Source: Daphnia pulex (Eukaryota > Arthropoda > Branchiopoda > Diplostraca > Daphniidae). From it: DNA of 64,000 nt. Shown piece by piece: positions 18,235 through 53,300 of the stretch (position 1 is the first letter of the stretch; every line of letters begins with the position of its first letter). The notes under the pieces were generated by a model. The model did not search any database, was not told the origin of the DNA, and saw nothing but the letters and a program-made list of their open reading frames with translations. Where the stretch lies: contig NC_060020.1 of NCBI RefSeq assembly GCF_021134715.1, positions 6,014,001 to 6,078,000 on the forward strand. Reading direction: 5' to 3'. Position numbers and translations under genes: made by a program.

Positions 18235-18595
18235 AGACCTTATTCGAATCCAAAGGTATGGGTCAAGCCGACCCCTTTGCGTCCCGTTGCAGTATGAAGG
18301 GGTGCCGTGAACAGAAGATTTTTATTTGGCTCGCCCCGCAGTACATGAATTTAGGCTTTACGGGTAAATCGTGCCCGAGGGAAGAATAGGGAGGAAAGGA
18401 GAGAATGAAAAAAAGAGGGGACCAGACTTTCCTTTTCTCCCTATTCTTCCCTCGGGCACGATTTACCCGTAAAGCCTAAATTCATGTACTGCGGGGCGAG
18501 CCAAATAAAAATCTTCTGTTCACGGCACCACTTCACACTGCAACGCGACGCAAAGGGGTCGACTTGACCCATACCTTTGGATTCGAATAAGGTCT
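18235..18595. repeat. Foldback (inverted-repeat) element
   Basis: Left arm 18235-18400 and right arm 18431-18595 are inverted copies of about 165 bp with only a few mismatches, separated by a 30-bp purine-rich spacer. The outer ends read AGACCTTATTCGAATCC and its complement. I see no transposase ORF and no convincing target-site duplication. It sits 112 bp after the RING gene stop and abuts the tandem array to its right. Best read as a non-autonomous foldback or MITE-like insertion. Confidence 0.85.
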
Positions 18596-41378: not shown

Positions 41379-44300
41379 GTATATGGGTGTGTGTCAGACG
41401 TCGCCCAGCAGGATCCGCCTTTTGTACATCTGTTATAAATTGTTTGCCGGGCGACCGATAGATTAAAAGCCGCCGCAGCACGGGGCTATAGACGAACGGA
41501 GGTGCTGCGCTGTGCTGACTGCCATTCACGCGGCCCCTCCCCCGTGTAATGAGTTTGTGCCAAACTCGTCACCGTCGACCTGATATTCTCAGGCTGATAC
41601 ACTCCGGCGTGATTAAAACGTCTTCCGTTTGGCACAATACTGGCAGCAGCCAAGTCGTTTAATTTAAGACGGCTGCGCTGCTGGGGCGTCACCGACGGAG
41701 ATGTGATGGCTGCCTAAGATTGCACAGAGCCTATATACTATACTATACGCCGGTTCCTTATAATACACAGCACCAGCACATCGGATGGAAAGTGAGAAAA
41801 GCGGTTGTTGAATGTCAAGTCTCTCTGCTGATCGTCTATGGAGTTTCCACTCTGCTCGGCGCCTGTGTGTGGCGCCCTGCATTTGATGTTTAGTCGCTAT
41901 ATAGTGGAGATGAATAGATACGTTCAGCGGGTGATGTGATGCTGGAAATGCAGCAGTCGATTGAACAATGGGACCGACAGTCCCGCCTGCGCTGGCGTCA
42001 CTCGGCGTCGCCGACAATCTACATGAAATAAGGGGAGTGATGATGCTGTGTGTACTCTAAAAGTTGCATAAAAGACATGACAGGAGGAGTACACCCATAA
42101 TGTATAGTGGCGTGTATACAAGTGTCTAATAATAAGTCTTGATCGTAATCAAAAGAGAAGTTGACGATGAAGAGAATAATAAAAAGAACAAAAGCGGCTA
42201 GACCGGGCTAGACACATATTTTCGGACAATGGCGTGGACACAAGAACCGCATTAAAGCCGGGCACAATATATTATAATAGAAAAATTAAATTCTCACTTG
42301 TTTTATTGTTATACTTATGTAGTTATTTTTATGATACTCAAAGTTTAGAAGCGTGAGAGTTTTTAGACAATAAAAATGAAGTCGCCGCTGTTTTGCAATT
42401 TATATAGAAAGATGCGCATCTTTCTTCATCTTCTCCGCCACGGTCGCATAATAAAGTTCGTCTATATAGAGGTTTTTCCATTTGGTTCGTGTAAGTAGAG
42501 GGAAAAGTCGTGCGGCTAGTCGACTAGTGCGCACCATGGCGGGGGATAGCCGAAACTTGCTGCAGACTTTGCTTGATCCAAACGATAGTCACCGTAAGGC
42601 CATGTACTGTAACCTGTCAGGCTGTCAGCAGCAAAAGTGAAACCTGTTTTTTTTCTTAAGTGTTTAAAATGACAAAAGGTTTTTGTTTCATATGTTCAAC
42701 TTATGAAACAAAAATAGATCGCCGAAGTTTTTTCAAAGTGAAATGAGTTCTTTCTCAATTGAATTACTGTTAATGTTGCATTCTGGCACTTTGAAAAAAC
42801 TTCGGCGATCTATTTTTGTTTCATAAGTTGAACATATGAAACAAAAACCTTTTGTCATTTTAAACACTTAAGAAAAAAAACAGGTTTCACTTTTGCTGCT
42901 GACAGCCTGACAGGTTACAGTACATGGCCTTACGGTGACTATCGTTTGGATCAAGCAAAGTCTGCAGCAAGTTTCGGCTATCCCCCGCCATGGTGCGCAC
43001 TAGTCGACTAGCCGCACGACTTTTCCCTCTACTTACACGAACCAAATGGAAAAACCTCTATATCTCTAGACATCATAATCAGCTTTACGGAGTCTTAAGC
43101 AATTTGCCCGATCAAAAGGGACGACGATACGACCACTTTAGGTTTTGGTATCTTTTTTCCTATCGAGAAAAATGTCATTTCTCGATGATGTAGACTGCGC
43201 ATAAAAGCTAGAAAGCTCTGCATATTCAATTAGATGTCGTCGGATGATTTTCCTTTATAATACTAGATGATACATTATCGGACAACTTCTTTGACTCTCG
43301 CGCGACGCTGCTGGCGCTGTGTGTGAAGATGGCCAACAAAGACAGTATTATATAGATAGACGGGGTCGTCATTACTCGTCCAACTATCGCCACTAAGTGC
43401 TGCTGGGAAACGTCAAGCGATCAGTAGAAATATATATATAAAGGCGCGGTCCCAAAGGATATAGCCTACTATAGCTCTCTCTCTCTCTTTGCTATTCATT
43501 TCAGCTGGAATTCCTAAAAATGATTTAAGAGAGTAAATGATTTAAACTGGAGACGATTTATTTTTATTGAGTAGAGGAACGGTGGAACGCGTAGTCTACC
43601 CATCATAAAGGATAATTATATCGGATAATTATTTCCTATTCACAATGCATTTTTAGTAGGACTGGAATATTTGTTGTCTATCACATGTTAATCGTTGTCA
43701 ATAAACCAGTTTTTTTTTTATCTTGATAGTGAGCTGCGTTTATATCAATTGTATGGACATTTAAACAAAAGTATTACTAATCATTCAATTGACATGAATC
43801 ATACGCAGATGAAATATGTTTATCAATTTCATCATTGTCAGCCTCCAACCATTGTCCCTTAAGTTTTGAGATTATATTTTCATTTATTAAGTATGAGTCG
43901 GTGAATCTTATATATTTAAATGACCTTCCAGTACAAGTGGAAGGTCAAAAAAATCTCCGAGCACAAGACTCTCTACTTACTCTCTAACAAACACCCAACA
44001 AAAGGTGAAAATTAAACGCAAGAGGTTATTGAACTTGAATGGTGAAATTGATTTCATGTATGTTACTGTGCTGAGTGGCGTATGCAACTGTAGACGTTCA
44101 AATGGGTCTCTTTCGTCGGTTCAATGCTAGATGGACCCAGTTCGCAATTCGATATTATTGATCATTTGTGATCATAAACCGTCAAACGAGGATAATATTG
44201 CATAGGTAAGAGACGTTATCTTTATTACGCAGCCTCGTTTCACAAGAAACCCCTCCCCCCCCAAGCCTTCGGTATAAAATTACAACATGGGCGACTACAC

Positions 44301-47300: not shown

Positions 47301-50300
47301 AAGTATTTGCCGTGTAAACCAATTCAGTCCGATGCGATCAAAGACATTTTCAAAGGCCTGATGTCAACTCCATGTACAACTACAACATGATAGTCAACCT
47401 GTTGGCACATCTACGTATAGCTCGATAATAATAATAAAAAAAGAGCATCGAAATGGTTTCATCTCTCGTACGTGTGCAATGGAACGGAGTAATTGAATTA
47501 AATCCGAGCCCGCGCGCGACGCCTGCAGGCCTGCTGTGAATAGAACGGAAATAATTACATAAGAGTCTGCCCTCCCCAAAGAAAAACGTGAAAATATAGT
47601 CAAATGGGGAAGAAGAAAAACCAATCCCATTGTGTAGTATTATATATCGCCGGTGCTTTTTGGGGTGGCAGGATCGTTTGGTGATGGGATTGGATGGCAC
47701 CCAAAGCGAACGTCTAATATTGTATACTACATCTAAAAATAAAATATTATATACGATACTCACAATAGACGACATTATTGGACAAGAGAAAACGGAGCCG
47801 ACGGTCCATTAGGGGCTTCCGTTATTTTTTGTATTTGCAGAGCAGTTGCTGCTGGTGTTTATTAGATTTCTGGCAGCCAATCTATAGAGTATAAGTCACC
47901 ATACAGGGCCAATAACCGCCAGCAACAACAAGAAAAAAAAACCCCAACAAAATGATATAAAAAGAAAACGGGGAATGTAATAGTATATCTACGTAAAAAA
48001 GCGCCAGAGGAGCGAGAGCGCGTGATGTTCGATCATATAGACAAACAAAAGACAATTCAATCGATATAATATATAAAGCGGCCGCCGCCGTCGCCGCCGC
48101 CGCCAGTCGGTTGATTCCATCTTTCATGCAGCCCAATCGGCGCTCGGGCCTTTTATTTTGATTCTTTTATTTGTTTCTCATTTCCTTTTGTCTCCCCCTC
48201 CCTGATGCTGTTATTGGCCGGCTGTATATAGCGGAGCAAACGGGGTTCTAATCAAGCAGGAATCCATCCATCTATCCATCGCGGCATCGAAAAACGCGGA
48301 AAAACGCCTCCACCAAAAAATAAATAAATAAATAAAAAGGAACAATACAATGCGCAGGAAACAATGCGGAAGCTATCGAAGACAATCCCGAAAAAGATCT
48401 ATCTGTGTTTTTTTTTTTGTGTGTGCCAGTTTGGCGGTCGTCTATATAACTGCCGTCTGCCGACGGCGACGTGATCGTTAAACGCGTGCTGACAAGTGAC
48501 AACAGCCTATAGATAAAGAAAGAATATAAAGAGCAAACGATTCTTCTGTGTATTTCTTCATCCGGAAATACTATAGCTGTTGTCTTGATGTTCTTTCTAT
48601 GACGCCCTTATCTATATAATTTTTTATCCCATTTGAGTTATCTCTTTCGGGTCTTCTACATTTCTGGAAATGATCGCAGGCTCGAGATATCATTTTGCCA
48701 TCGGCAGACGTGTTTGACTTTAATGGCCATTTATTTGTTGACGAATGGCTTGGCGACCACCAAGAAATGTTATCCCATACCATTCAATATAAAAAAGGGG
48801 CCGACATTTTATTATATTGTCTGGCGTTTGGGAGATTTATCTTTCTTATTTCTCTCTTTATAGAATTAATTGATGGAATTGTATTTACTATTATTATACG
48901 CAGATCGTCGGCTTGGTTTCGGTGTTTTTCATCTGCGTCTCGATCCTGTCGTTCTGCCTGAAGACGCATCCCAACTTGCGAGTGCCCGTCATACGTAACG
49001 TCACGATCGACTGGTCGAGATCGGTCGTGGCTTCGCCCGGCGGAGTCCTGGACATTTACCAGCGATTCCGACATCAATATCCGACTCGGCACAGCAACTG
49101 GACAACCAGTTGGACATTGGACAAGACCCGCACCGAGCCCCATCAAGCCTTCTTCTTTGTCGAACTGGTCCGTATTGTCCATAGTCCAGCTATGTCCAGC
49201 TAGCTAGCTCTATCCTGAATGTAATATCGATTGGAATTGATTGAATTTCCATTTTCTCCCCCTGCTGTTATTCCGTTGTATATAGATGTGCAATGTCTGG
49301 TTCACGCTGGAATTTACGGTCCGTTTCGTCGTGTGCCCAAACAAGTGCATCTTCGCCCGGTCGCTAGTCAACATCATCGACTTGGTAGCCACTCTCTCAT
49401 TTTACACCGACATTCTCCTACAGGTATAACAGGTTTAATTGAATATAAAGTTTGAGTATTATTATACTTAAATGTCGATTGGAACAGGAGCTGGCCCATC
49501 ATGTGGACAACGCCGACATCCTGGAATTCTTTTCCATCATTCGAATTCTGCGTTTGTTCAAATTAACGCGCCATTCACCCGGCCTGAAAATCCTGGTGCA
49601 CACGTTCAAAGCCTCGGCCAAAGAGCTGACGCTCCTCGTCTTCTTTCTCGTCCTGGGCATTGTCGTCTTCGCCAGTCTCGTCTACTACGCCGAACGGCTC
49701 CAGGCCAATCCCGACAACAATTTCAAGGTATCGTCTAGTCACAAATTCCCTTCGATTGGGGCAGCATCAACAACAGCAATTCTCAGAATTCTCAGTCGTC
49801 CATTCCGCATCACTAAAGTGAAAAATAGTTTCACAGAGCTACTGCTATATATACTGCTGACGCGCGGGTCATATCAAAATGTTCTTCATATCCTTTTTGT
49901 AGCAATCATTGATGATGTTGTTGGGCGGCATCCGCCTGCGAATGAGGCGGACGCACAGGAGGTCCGCGAATGATTCGAAAAAACTGCCATGGTCGTTCCT
50001 TCTTCTTCTCTGGCTGTCTCCATTTCTCATCATCCGCGCTCATAACAGCACAGCACACACGGCACACTCGATGAGTGCAATCATGAGTAATGACGAAGCG
50101 CGAGCGCGCGGGAGACGGCCCGGATGCCAGATGTGATGACGCTCTATTAATACGCACGCAGCGATGACCATTCCCCAATTGAAGAACGAGAATGATGAGA
50201 GAGGGGGTGAGAGCGCATCATCATCATCTCCTCCGGCGGAAATTTAGTTGAAGGATATTCATCATCGTATAGATACAGGAGAGCAGAACGAAGAGTCGTG

Positions 50301-53300
50301 CTGATGCTTCTTATAGCTGTTCAACAGCACAGAATCGGATCATTATCTGTTGAATGAAATAGTCTTTCGACTATTACTACAGATTTGGGAGTAACAGACG
50401 AATAAGTCATTTCCAATTCAACGGCAATTGAACTCCCAACTGTGCGTTTGGCGCTTTCATTTTGTGATTATGTCGCACAATTTTCTTATGTATTGCTGAT
50501 GGAAACCGAATGCTGCCGATGACTTTGAATGCGGATGGAATTGGATACACACAAAATGGATGGAGCGGCGGCCGGCTGAATCTGACAAACATTTTCTCTC
50601 GTCTTATTCTTTTTCCCGGAAATTTCGTTTTGTGCGCATTTATTGCTTGGGCGGGAGGGACTTTCCCTTGTTGCTGTCGAGTCGGACGATAAATCCCGAA
50701 AGAGTTGGCACGAAAAACAAAACAACAAATTAAGGAAATGTATTACATGATGATTATATCTCTCTCTCTCTTCAGCTGCGGCCGACGTTCAGCAGATTCT
50801 AGGGGGGAGAGCATCTAATGAAAATATATGAAACTCGTGTCTTATCGCAATCCCGGATCCATCAGATCCTCATGTCACCAATCTAACTGAAATGATGTCG
50901 AAACGTTATTTGTTTTCGTCGACTATACTACTATATAATCGATTTATCTTTGTGTGTGTATCTTTTTCATTTCTAAATGTTCGGCTGAGAGCAGAGCATC
51001 CCGGAAGGTCTTTGGTGGGCCATCGTCACCATGACAACGGTACGATATATATATTGCTCCGCTTTTTTTTTTCTTTTATAATATCATCATTTTTCCAATA
51101 TAGCGGTGAATTCCATCGCCCATTCCTTTCAGATATAATAATAACGTCTAATCTTTTCCCGGAATATTTCTTTTTTATTTTCTTTATTCAATTTCCTATT
51201 CATCACGACGTGCTGATCCACTTTTTCGACATGCAAATCAAAACTCATCAATACGAAACGACAGGTGGGCTACGGAGATATGGCACCCAAAACGTACGTG
51301 GGAATGTTTGTCGGTGCCCTTTGCGCTTTGGCTGGCGTGTTGACCATCGCCCTGCCGGTCCCTGTCATCGTCTCCAATTTCTCAATGTTCTACAGCCACA
51401 CGCAGGTAATTACGCCATCCACCTTTTTGTCCTTTTATAATAAAAACAAACAAAAAAGAGCCCGTAGTATAGACAATTATTAACGACGGTGAAACTGCCT
51501 CGCCTATACCACGCTCTTCATCCCCTTTCGACAGATGTTATATAAGCTCCTCCCAAAAAAGTTGCAGGCTATATAATAGAGTCACTTTGCATTAGTCAAG
51601 TTGTTGCCGCGCCGCTACCGTGATGGGCTGTGCTCGATCATACAAGTTTGCTCGTTATAATAGAAGAGGAGGTGACGCAAATGTCAAACTCGACGGGTAA
51701 AATTTTCGAAAGCTGGCGGCTTGGCGCGGCGGCTGGATGCGATCCCGTCCGTCCGTTCTTTTGATCAATTTCATCAAACCCGAATCGCAAAGTCTCCCAA
51801 CTTTTGACTATATATACCAGCATCCTATTATAAAGGGTTGATTGAGTGAAACTTTGCAATCACTATACAGCAGCAGCGCATATTATATGATGCGCGGAAT
51901 AAGAAAGTGAATTGATCCGCCAGTTGAACACGACGATCTGCACACTGAAATCCGTCTATATCCCGTTGATGGAAACTGTCATGCCAACTACTACTCTAAT
52001 AAGATATCGACCAATCAAATTTGACTTTTCGTCGTGTCGTTTCTCTGATGCATGACTGGAATAAGAGACTGGGAAAAGGGCGGACGGAATATAGTTTGGC
52101 GAAATAACTTCTATATAAGACAACTGATATATCTTGAAAGAATAAAAGGTCTCTTCATTCAAATTCCTGGAAAGATGACAAACATTTTTATTTTTTTCCC
52201 GATAGTTTCTGATCCGGAATGTTCCGTAAAGAGGGGGGGGGGAATTCACATGATAGATGTTTTGACTCTATATGTGCACGTATATAGTACCGTGAATGAA
52301 TGGGAGGCGCCACAATAGTCGGAAGAAAAGCAGCTTGAGAGCCATTGTATTTATACTTGTCCGTGCAATGCGTAATGCAATGGAACTCTGTCATCCGGCC
52401 GGAGTAAAAAAAAAAAGGGTAGGGAAATCGCTAAGGGAGATGTATATACTGCCGGTTGGAAATGATGGACGATGGTAAGGGGGGAAAAAATAGGAGTCGT
52501 GCAACGGGGCAAAACAAAATAAACTTTGAACAAATTCCCTTTTTTTCCGTACTCGAAACTTTGTTGTTTTGTTGACGGATCCGGCAACTTGTGTGGGATG
52601 TGGAAGGGGGGAGATTCATGCAACAACAAACACGCAAATTCCTGAACGCTGTTTTCGTGTAGCCAGCATGGGTTGAATGCAAAACAAAAACGTTTGATAA
52701 ATGTTCATCATCTTCTCTATTATATACAACAGGCGCGCTCTAAATTGCCTAAAAAAAGACGCAGCGTCTTGCCTGTGGAGCAGATCCGGCGGAAGCAACA
52801 ACAGCAAAATCGAAACGATGGCGGCGGCGGTGGTGGTGGCGGCCTCCAGCGGCGGATGAACGCTTTCAAGCACAATCCTCCAGCCATGTTGCTCAAGGAT
52901 GCCATGGCCGTTACTTTCGGTGCCGGTAAATAATGCACATCAATTTTCGTTACATGTCGCCCCATCCGCTTTATATTTTTAAACGAATAATGCGCTGACT
53001 TTCTTTTTTTCTAAATTATGTTTTCTATTACATATAGCGGGTGCTTGTAATAATGTCAACGTCACAGCGGCGGCAGCGGCGGCCAATAAGCTGCCCGGCT
53101 GCACCAGTTCCGTGGCATCCATTCAAGTACAACCGATGCTTCCGATGCTTCCGGGCCGCCCATCAGCCGCCTTCGATTTCACCGCCCTGGGACTCATGGC
53201 CAAGATTATTGGTAATTATCTGATTTTTTTTAATATTTGGAACTTGAATTAATGAAACTTTTCTACGAATTTGTACAGAATCACCGCCTTTAGTGACACT

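Follow-up and report, generated by a model that had tools for sequence, protein, structure and literature searches.

A long palindrome in a Shaw-like potassium-channel intron of Daphnia pulex is very probably a non-autonomous derivative of an ISL2EU transposon

A long and perfectly matched hairpin lying inside a potassium-channel gene raises the question of whether it is a locus that silences the gene from which its arms were copied, or a transposable element that happens to have landed there. The hairpin considered here lies in a 64-kb stretch of Daphnia pulex DNA (hereafter, the window), in which a scan with 14-nt seeds identified two inverted repeats 60 nt or longer, the hairpin being one of them. 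Its arms (42464-42740 and 42787-43063) measure 277 nt each, are 100% complementary and enclose a spacer of 46 nt; the two identical 277-bp arms and 46-nt loop given in a preliminary description of this DNA, made from sequence only, are exact, and the hairpin is confirmed as real. The RNA fold of positions 42468-43059 has an energy of -525.9 kcal/mol, whereas 100 shuffled sequences average -145.2 (sd 5.6).

The preliminary description had also placed the hairpin in a potassium-channel intron, and this position holds. An exon upstream, on the + strand, encodes a BTB_2 domain for which the best PDB match is the Shaw T1 structure 3kvt; + strand motifs that we take to be Shaw-like are found upstream, at approximately 40.52 kb and 40.84 kb, and downstream, at approximately 48.92 kb, and a match to Ion_trans spans 49449-49973. 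The assignment of the 48.9-kb piece as a Shaw exon is based on motif and order, and a search of this piece alone against PDB returned no match. Because Shaw-like + strand pieces are present on both sides, the hairpin is placed within the intron running between approximately 40.9 and 48.9 kb. Across the window, the sole match to Rfam at gathering level was the potassium channel RNA editing signal K_chan_RES (51265-51378, 98.8 bits), which overlaps the Shaw-like coding motif VLTIALPVP at 51337; none was obtained on the hairpin.

The sequence of one arm was then compared with the genome (133.19 Mb, 13 contigs), yielding at least 89 matching stretches among the best 40 of 45 candidates. These include at least 16 near-full-length, two-armed hairpins distributed over 11 of the 13 contigs, besides shorter and broken copies, and the two-ended copies among them span 588-599 bp. 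In a full comparison of five copies, the window copy and those on contigs C12, C5 and C3 proved to have the same 592 bp, and the copy on C1 departed from the window copy at a single base. This near-identity indicates that the family has spread recently. Of 20 copies examined, the 15 two-ended ones all run from AGAG[GC] to [GC]CTCT and present AT on both sides, and the five single-ended ones retain AT beside the end. The flanks of 14 of the 15 two-ended copies were joined with one AT retained, and for six of these joined sites a paralogous empty site was identified, which runs across the junction, lacks the element and has one AT. Five are clear (C11, with 140 of 142 columns identical, C9c, C5, C7a and C9a) and one is weaker (C12, 121 of 152), while for the remaining eight, the window site included, the best 40 of 446 candidates contained no paralogous empty site. 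Since flanks and empty sites agree, the AT is a genuine duplication of the target site, and the element proper corresponds to 42468-43059, with a length of 592 bp and arms of 273 nt that cover 273 of the 296 nt in each half. The 4 bp at the outer edge of either 277-nt arm lie outside the element and consist of the AT duplication and of flanking AT that is symmetrical by chance. Duplications of TA or TATA, or the absence of any duplication, were considered and dropped, as AT boundaries fit all 15 two-ended copies and agree with the empty sites. The coordinates of the element and its parts are collected in Table 1.

Table 1. Coordinates, in the window, of the palindromic element, its parts and a second palindromic MITE.
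Feature	Coordinates	Strand	Basis or remark
Palindromic non-autonomous ISL2EU element, 592 bp, termini AGAGG...CCTCT	42468..43059	.	Corresponding boundaries in 15/15 two-ended copies
Target-site duplication AT, left	42466..42467	.	Flank comparison; single-AT empty sites at paralogous sites of other copies
Target-site duplication AT, right	43060..43061	.	Flank comparison of copies
Left arm, inverted copy of the parent's transposase-side end	42468..42740	+	Inverted-repeat scan, alignment to parent
46-nt spacer, colinear with parent beside right arm	42741..42786	.	Left-arm junction common to 16/16 full copies
Right arm, colinear with right (transposase) end of parent L034	42787..43059	-	Alignment
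Truncated start of THAP-transposase gene, 41-aa frame	42733..42858	-	Alignment to parent; ATG at 42858
Mirrored transposase start in left arm	42669..42746	+	ATG at 42669
MAGDSRNLL frame, inside terminal repeat	42536..42640	+	Mirrored at 42887-42991 on - strand; no Pfam match
Second palindromic MITE, 169-nt arms, 96%, 23-nt spacer	18235..18595	.	Inverted-repeat scan

Dispersed copies with target-site duplications had been named in advance as the finding that would speak against a silencing locus; they are what the genome contains, and they bear out the alternative offered in the preliminary description, a recent foldback transposon. We consider the hairpin to be, almost certainly, a palindromic derivative of an ISL2EU DNA transposon of D. 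pulex, of foldback or MITE-like form, that is non-autonomous and was inserted recently. It resembles MITEs and foldback (FB-like) elements in being short and non-autonomous, with long inverted arms and many near-identical dispersed copies, and differs from them in that its arms make up nearly the whole element and include the start of a transposase gene; its membership of ISL2EU presumably also separates it from the Mutator-like foldbacks.

Copies of the element were also observed in contact with one another. At G000:C4:6606828-6608013 (L001, L026), two hairpin copies of different subfamilies lie end to end, with the outer bases on the junction side trimmed (GGAAAAACC abutting GGTTTTTCC). At G000:C1:85662-87417 (L039), a hairpin copy has landed immediately beside the terminus of an older one, the AT adjoining an element's end serving here as target.

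The ISL2EU assignment derives from a longer element, L034 (C2:7550500-7559500), which carries the two ends of the hairpin's family in inverted orientation, measures 5,002 bp end to end and has AT beside both ends. Its terminal inverted repeats are 209 nt long and 98% identical. Pfam searches identified a YqaJ domain (PF09588, 34.9 bits) on its + strand and, on the - strand, HTH_Tnp_4 (PF13613, 57.7 bits), DDE_Tnp_4 (PF13359) in two frames (64.1 and 71.6 bits) and THAP (PF05485, 24.2 bits for a cut-off of 23.9), so that the genes run inward from both ends and YqaJ opposes the transposase. L034 is a DNA transposon of the ISL2EU type, which falls in the PHIS/PIF-Harbinger-related superfamily, and the parent of the hairpin. 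Its frames are broken, with the DDE domain split over two of them and the THAP frame interrupted near its start. Apart from L034, the one long internal match of the hairpin family is 1.74 kb on C8, and no complete, intact autonomous copy was encountered. Another ISL2EU element, L068, is 66% identical to L034 in the compared part of the DDE protein and presents long inverted ends, a 387-aa frame combining HTH and DDE domains (PF13613 and PF13359) and an opposing YqaJ frame (PF09588); Pfam gave no THAP match in the 387-aa frame.

Published ISL2EU elements, according to excerpts of PMC4482050, generate an AT duplication, encode THAP-HTH-DDE plus, in most cases, YqaJ, are about 4.84 kb long with terminal repeats of 6-259 bp, and have ends that usually, not absolutely, begin with GG at an A-AT-T target. 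The family described here shares with them the AT duplication, the long terminal inverted repeats and a related 5.0-kb element with THAP, HTH and DDE pieces and an opposing YqaJ, and both the 209-nt repeats and the 5,002-bp length of L034 fit the published values, whereas the palindrome's own arms reach 273 nt. It differs in its termini, which are AGAGG, AGAGC or AGACC across copies instead of GG, and in its flanking bases, mostly T-AT-A (left T in 11 of 15 copies, right A in 10 of 15) instead of A-AT-T. The window element, moreover, is nearly all palindrome and encodes nothing complete. ISL2EU has already been reported in D. pulex, with 50 full-length and 172 fragmented elements (PMC5427498, excerpt), and a table on D. 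magna mutation lines (PMC8594854, excerpt) lists one ISL2EU event in each of two columns, which we read as gain and loss. Among the ISL2EU papers listed, no title or abstract opening describes palindromic derivatives, which is not a claim of absence from print.

Alignment to the parent reveals how the palindrome is built. The right arm and the spacer are colinear with the right end of L034 as far as CTCATT, at which point the sequence switches to the inverted arm. The hairpin is, in other words, the transposase end of the parent element joined to an inverted copy of that same end; two loci (C7:1974537 and C3:3618309) retain the parental sequence at the junction point. A single palindrome junction is common to 19 of 21 sequences, including all 16 full copies, and on the basis of this common junction we infer a single formation event; a separate origin of each palindrome subfamily is, for the same reason, less likely. 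In its simplest reading, a one-off inverted duplication of the transposase end would have formed the palindrome, which would then have been amplified, its two identical ends allowing ISL2EU transposase to mobilise it. Searched alone against Pfam, neither the 41-aa transposase frame nor a 39-aa piece of the arm frame returned a match. The equivalent longer frame of another hairpin-family copy, L036, aligns to THAP from profile position 6 with 23.4 bits, just below the cut-off of 23.9.

Palindromes other than the hairpin were also found. The second palindromic MITE of the window (Table 1) is 83% identical in its outer ~100 bp to the terminal repeat of L068, and has AT at its left end and none at its right. 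Elsewhere in the genome, the palindromes considered were pairs among the best matches, at most 40 candidates per search, and the repeated formation of palindromes among these transposons has been observed in a handful of cases. One palindrome with related ends, at G000:C8:6064669-6065032 (L041), has 136-nt arms that are 100% identical and, among the best 40 of 106 candidates, one full-length genome match. This palindrome shares the outer end of the hairpin family but has another interior, one that matches the interior of the 361-bp MITE family, and it is a hybrid of two MITE families. Other related repeats (L050/L051, L052, L058 and L059) keep the inner part of the terminal repeat (~75 nt, 85-93% identical), and the central segment of some copies is reversed, as though it had turned over between inverted arms.

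The two arms of the hairpin family appear to evolve together. Leaving out the outermost and innermost columns, 29 columns are variable among 16 copies, with the minor state always present in both arms in 15 of them, in one arm only in 11 and mixed in 3. Left-right differences total 20 among the 11 distinct copies, versus 73.6 on average after the right arms have been re-dealt among copies, and 1 of 5,000 deals gave 20 differences or fewer, in a statistic that still includes relatedness between subfamilies. Because of this kinship, and because some paired arm states also occur in parental-type copies, the test leaves some room for fresh palindromes generated from different parents. The variant at column 228 is found in one arm only, the same arm relative to the spacer, in five copies, and variants 273 and 274 in one arm of two copies each; differences between arms can therefore survive transposition. 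In the copy at C7:7773198, the mixed columns look like a partial conversion tract. The combined pattern points to an occasional homogenisation of the arms through inter-arm exchange or repair (gene conversion or cruciform repair), which would not take place at every transposition.

An unlikely, yet not negligible, reading assigns the hairpin a regulatory effect similar to that of Mu killer, the MuDR-derived maize locus in which two transposase-side terminal repeats accompany an inverted transposase gene start (PMC3440606, excerpt). Read-through from Shaw or another host gene would produce, from this or another copy, a long hairpin RNA, and Dicer would process it into siRNAs whose matches in related ISL2EU elements are the first codons of the transposase and the 5' leaders of the two genes, so that the family would be restrained. 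Either transcribed strand would yield a perfect 273-bp duplex, and the arms have matches at both ends of the parent, to the right (transposase) end and, for their outer ~199 nt, to the left (YqaJ) end as well. A total of 88 21-nt windows of the parent's right end are perfect in the arm, which comprises 253 such windows. The design is the same as that of Mu killer (PMC3440606, excerpt), with two transposase-side terminal repeats and an inverted duplication of the transposase gene start, although Mu killer is one locus in maize whereas many mobile copies exist here. Against this reading, the intronic hairpin would normally be spliced out, expansion to many near-identical copies is unlike effective silencing, and perfect stretches of at least 21 nt in the arm's transposase coding part are confined to its inner ~25 nt. 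The same source, furthermore, argues that Mu silencing is accompanied by antisense transcripts and not by the long hairpin (PMC3440606, excerpt). The hairpin RNA could in principle silence the parent transposon, but the element in the Shaw intron would, in all likelihood, be a passenger that is spliced out, and the hairpin most likely has no host function. Less probable still is a scheme in which ISL2EU elements might convert their ends to palindromes, with a YqaJ-type exonuclease encoded by the element exposing single-stranded 3' ends that snap back and are copied, the transposase spreading the resulting hairpins, arm exchange keeping them perfect and hairpin RNA repressing the parent family; within this long shot, the role of YqaJ in palindrome formation is speculation.

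That the arms are instead copies of the start of a host gene, constituting a hairpin-siRNA locus that silences it, is very improbable. The arms do contain open frames and a gene-like leader, and the gene-like 5' end noted in the preliminary description is correct insofar as they hold, at the inner ATG, the start of the THAP transposase. The MAGDSRNLL frame, by contrast, belongs to the terminal repeat: it is located within the repeat at both ends of L034, and its ATG is replaced by GTG in 10 of the 13 related repeats that were read, on which grounds the idea that this frame is the copied start of a gene was rejected. A parent gene, entertained as a possibility in the preliminary description, is present; it is not a host gene, though, but the THAP-DDE transposase gene of the transposon itself. 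The proposed comparison of one arm with the rest of the genome likewise pointed away from a host gene: among the best 40 of 45 candidates, the matches that were fetched, or that a search with the related repeat L050 recovered a second time, belong to ends of the transposon family or to related repeats (at loci unannotated for genes), and a host-gene parent is rejected as far as tested. Finally, although long perfect palindromes are difficult to sequence and assemble, the artefact that had been contemplated, in which a false inverted join or a collapsed haplotype gave rise to the palindrome, can be given next to no weight, since the same junction and 46-nt spacer recur at numerous unlinked loci whose flanks differ and which carry AT duplications and mutations specific to individual copies.

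A striking sequence feature is in this way settled as a young transposon insertion with exact boundaries, a parent and a target-site duplication. The family offers a clean natural case of long perfect palindromes multiplying in an animal genome with their arms staying matched, and it is relevant to the origin and persistence of palindromes. Should any of its copies make small RNAs, it would represent an animal counterpart of Mu killer, in which a transposon has itself made the means of its own repression.
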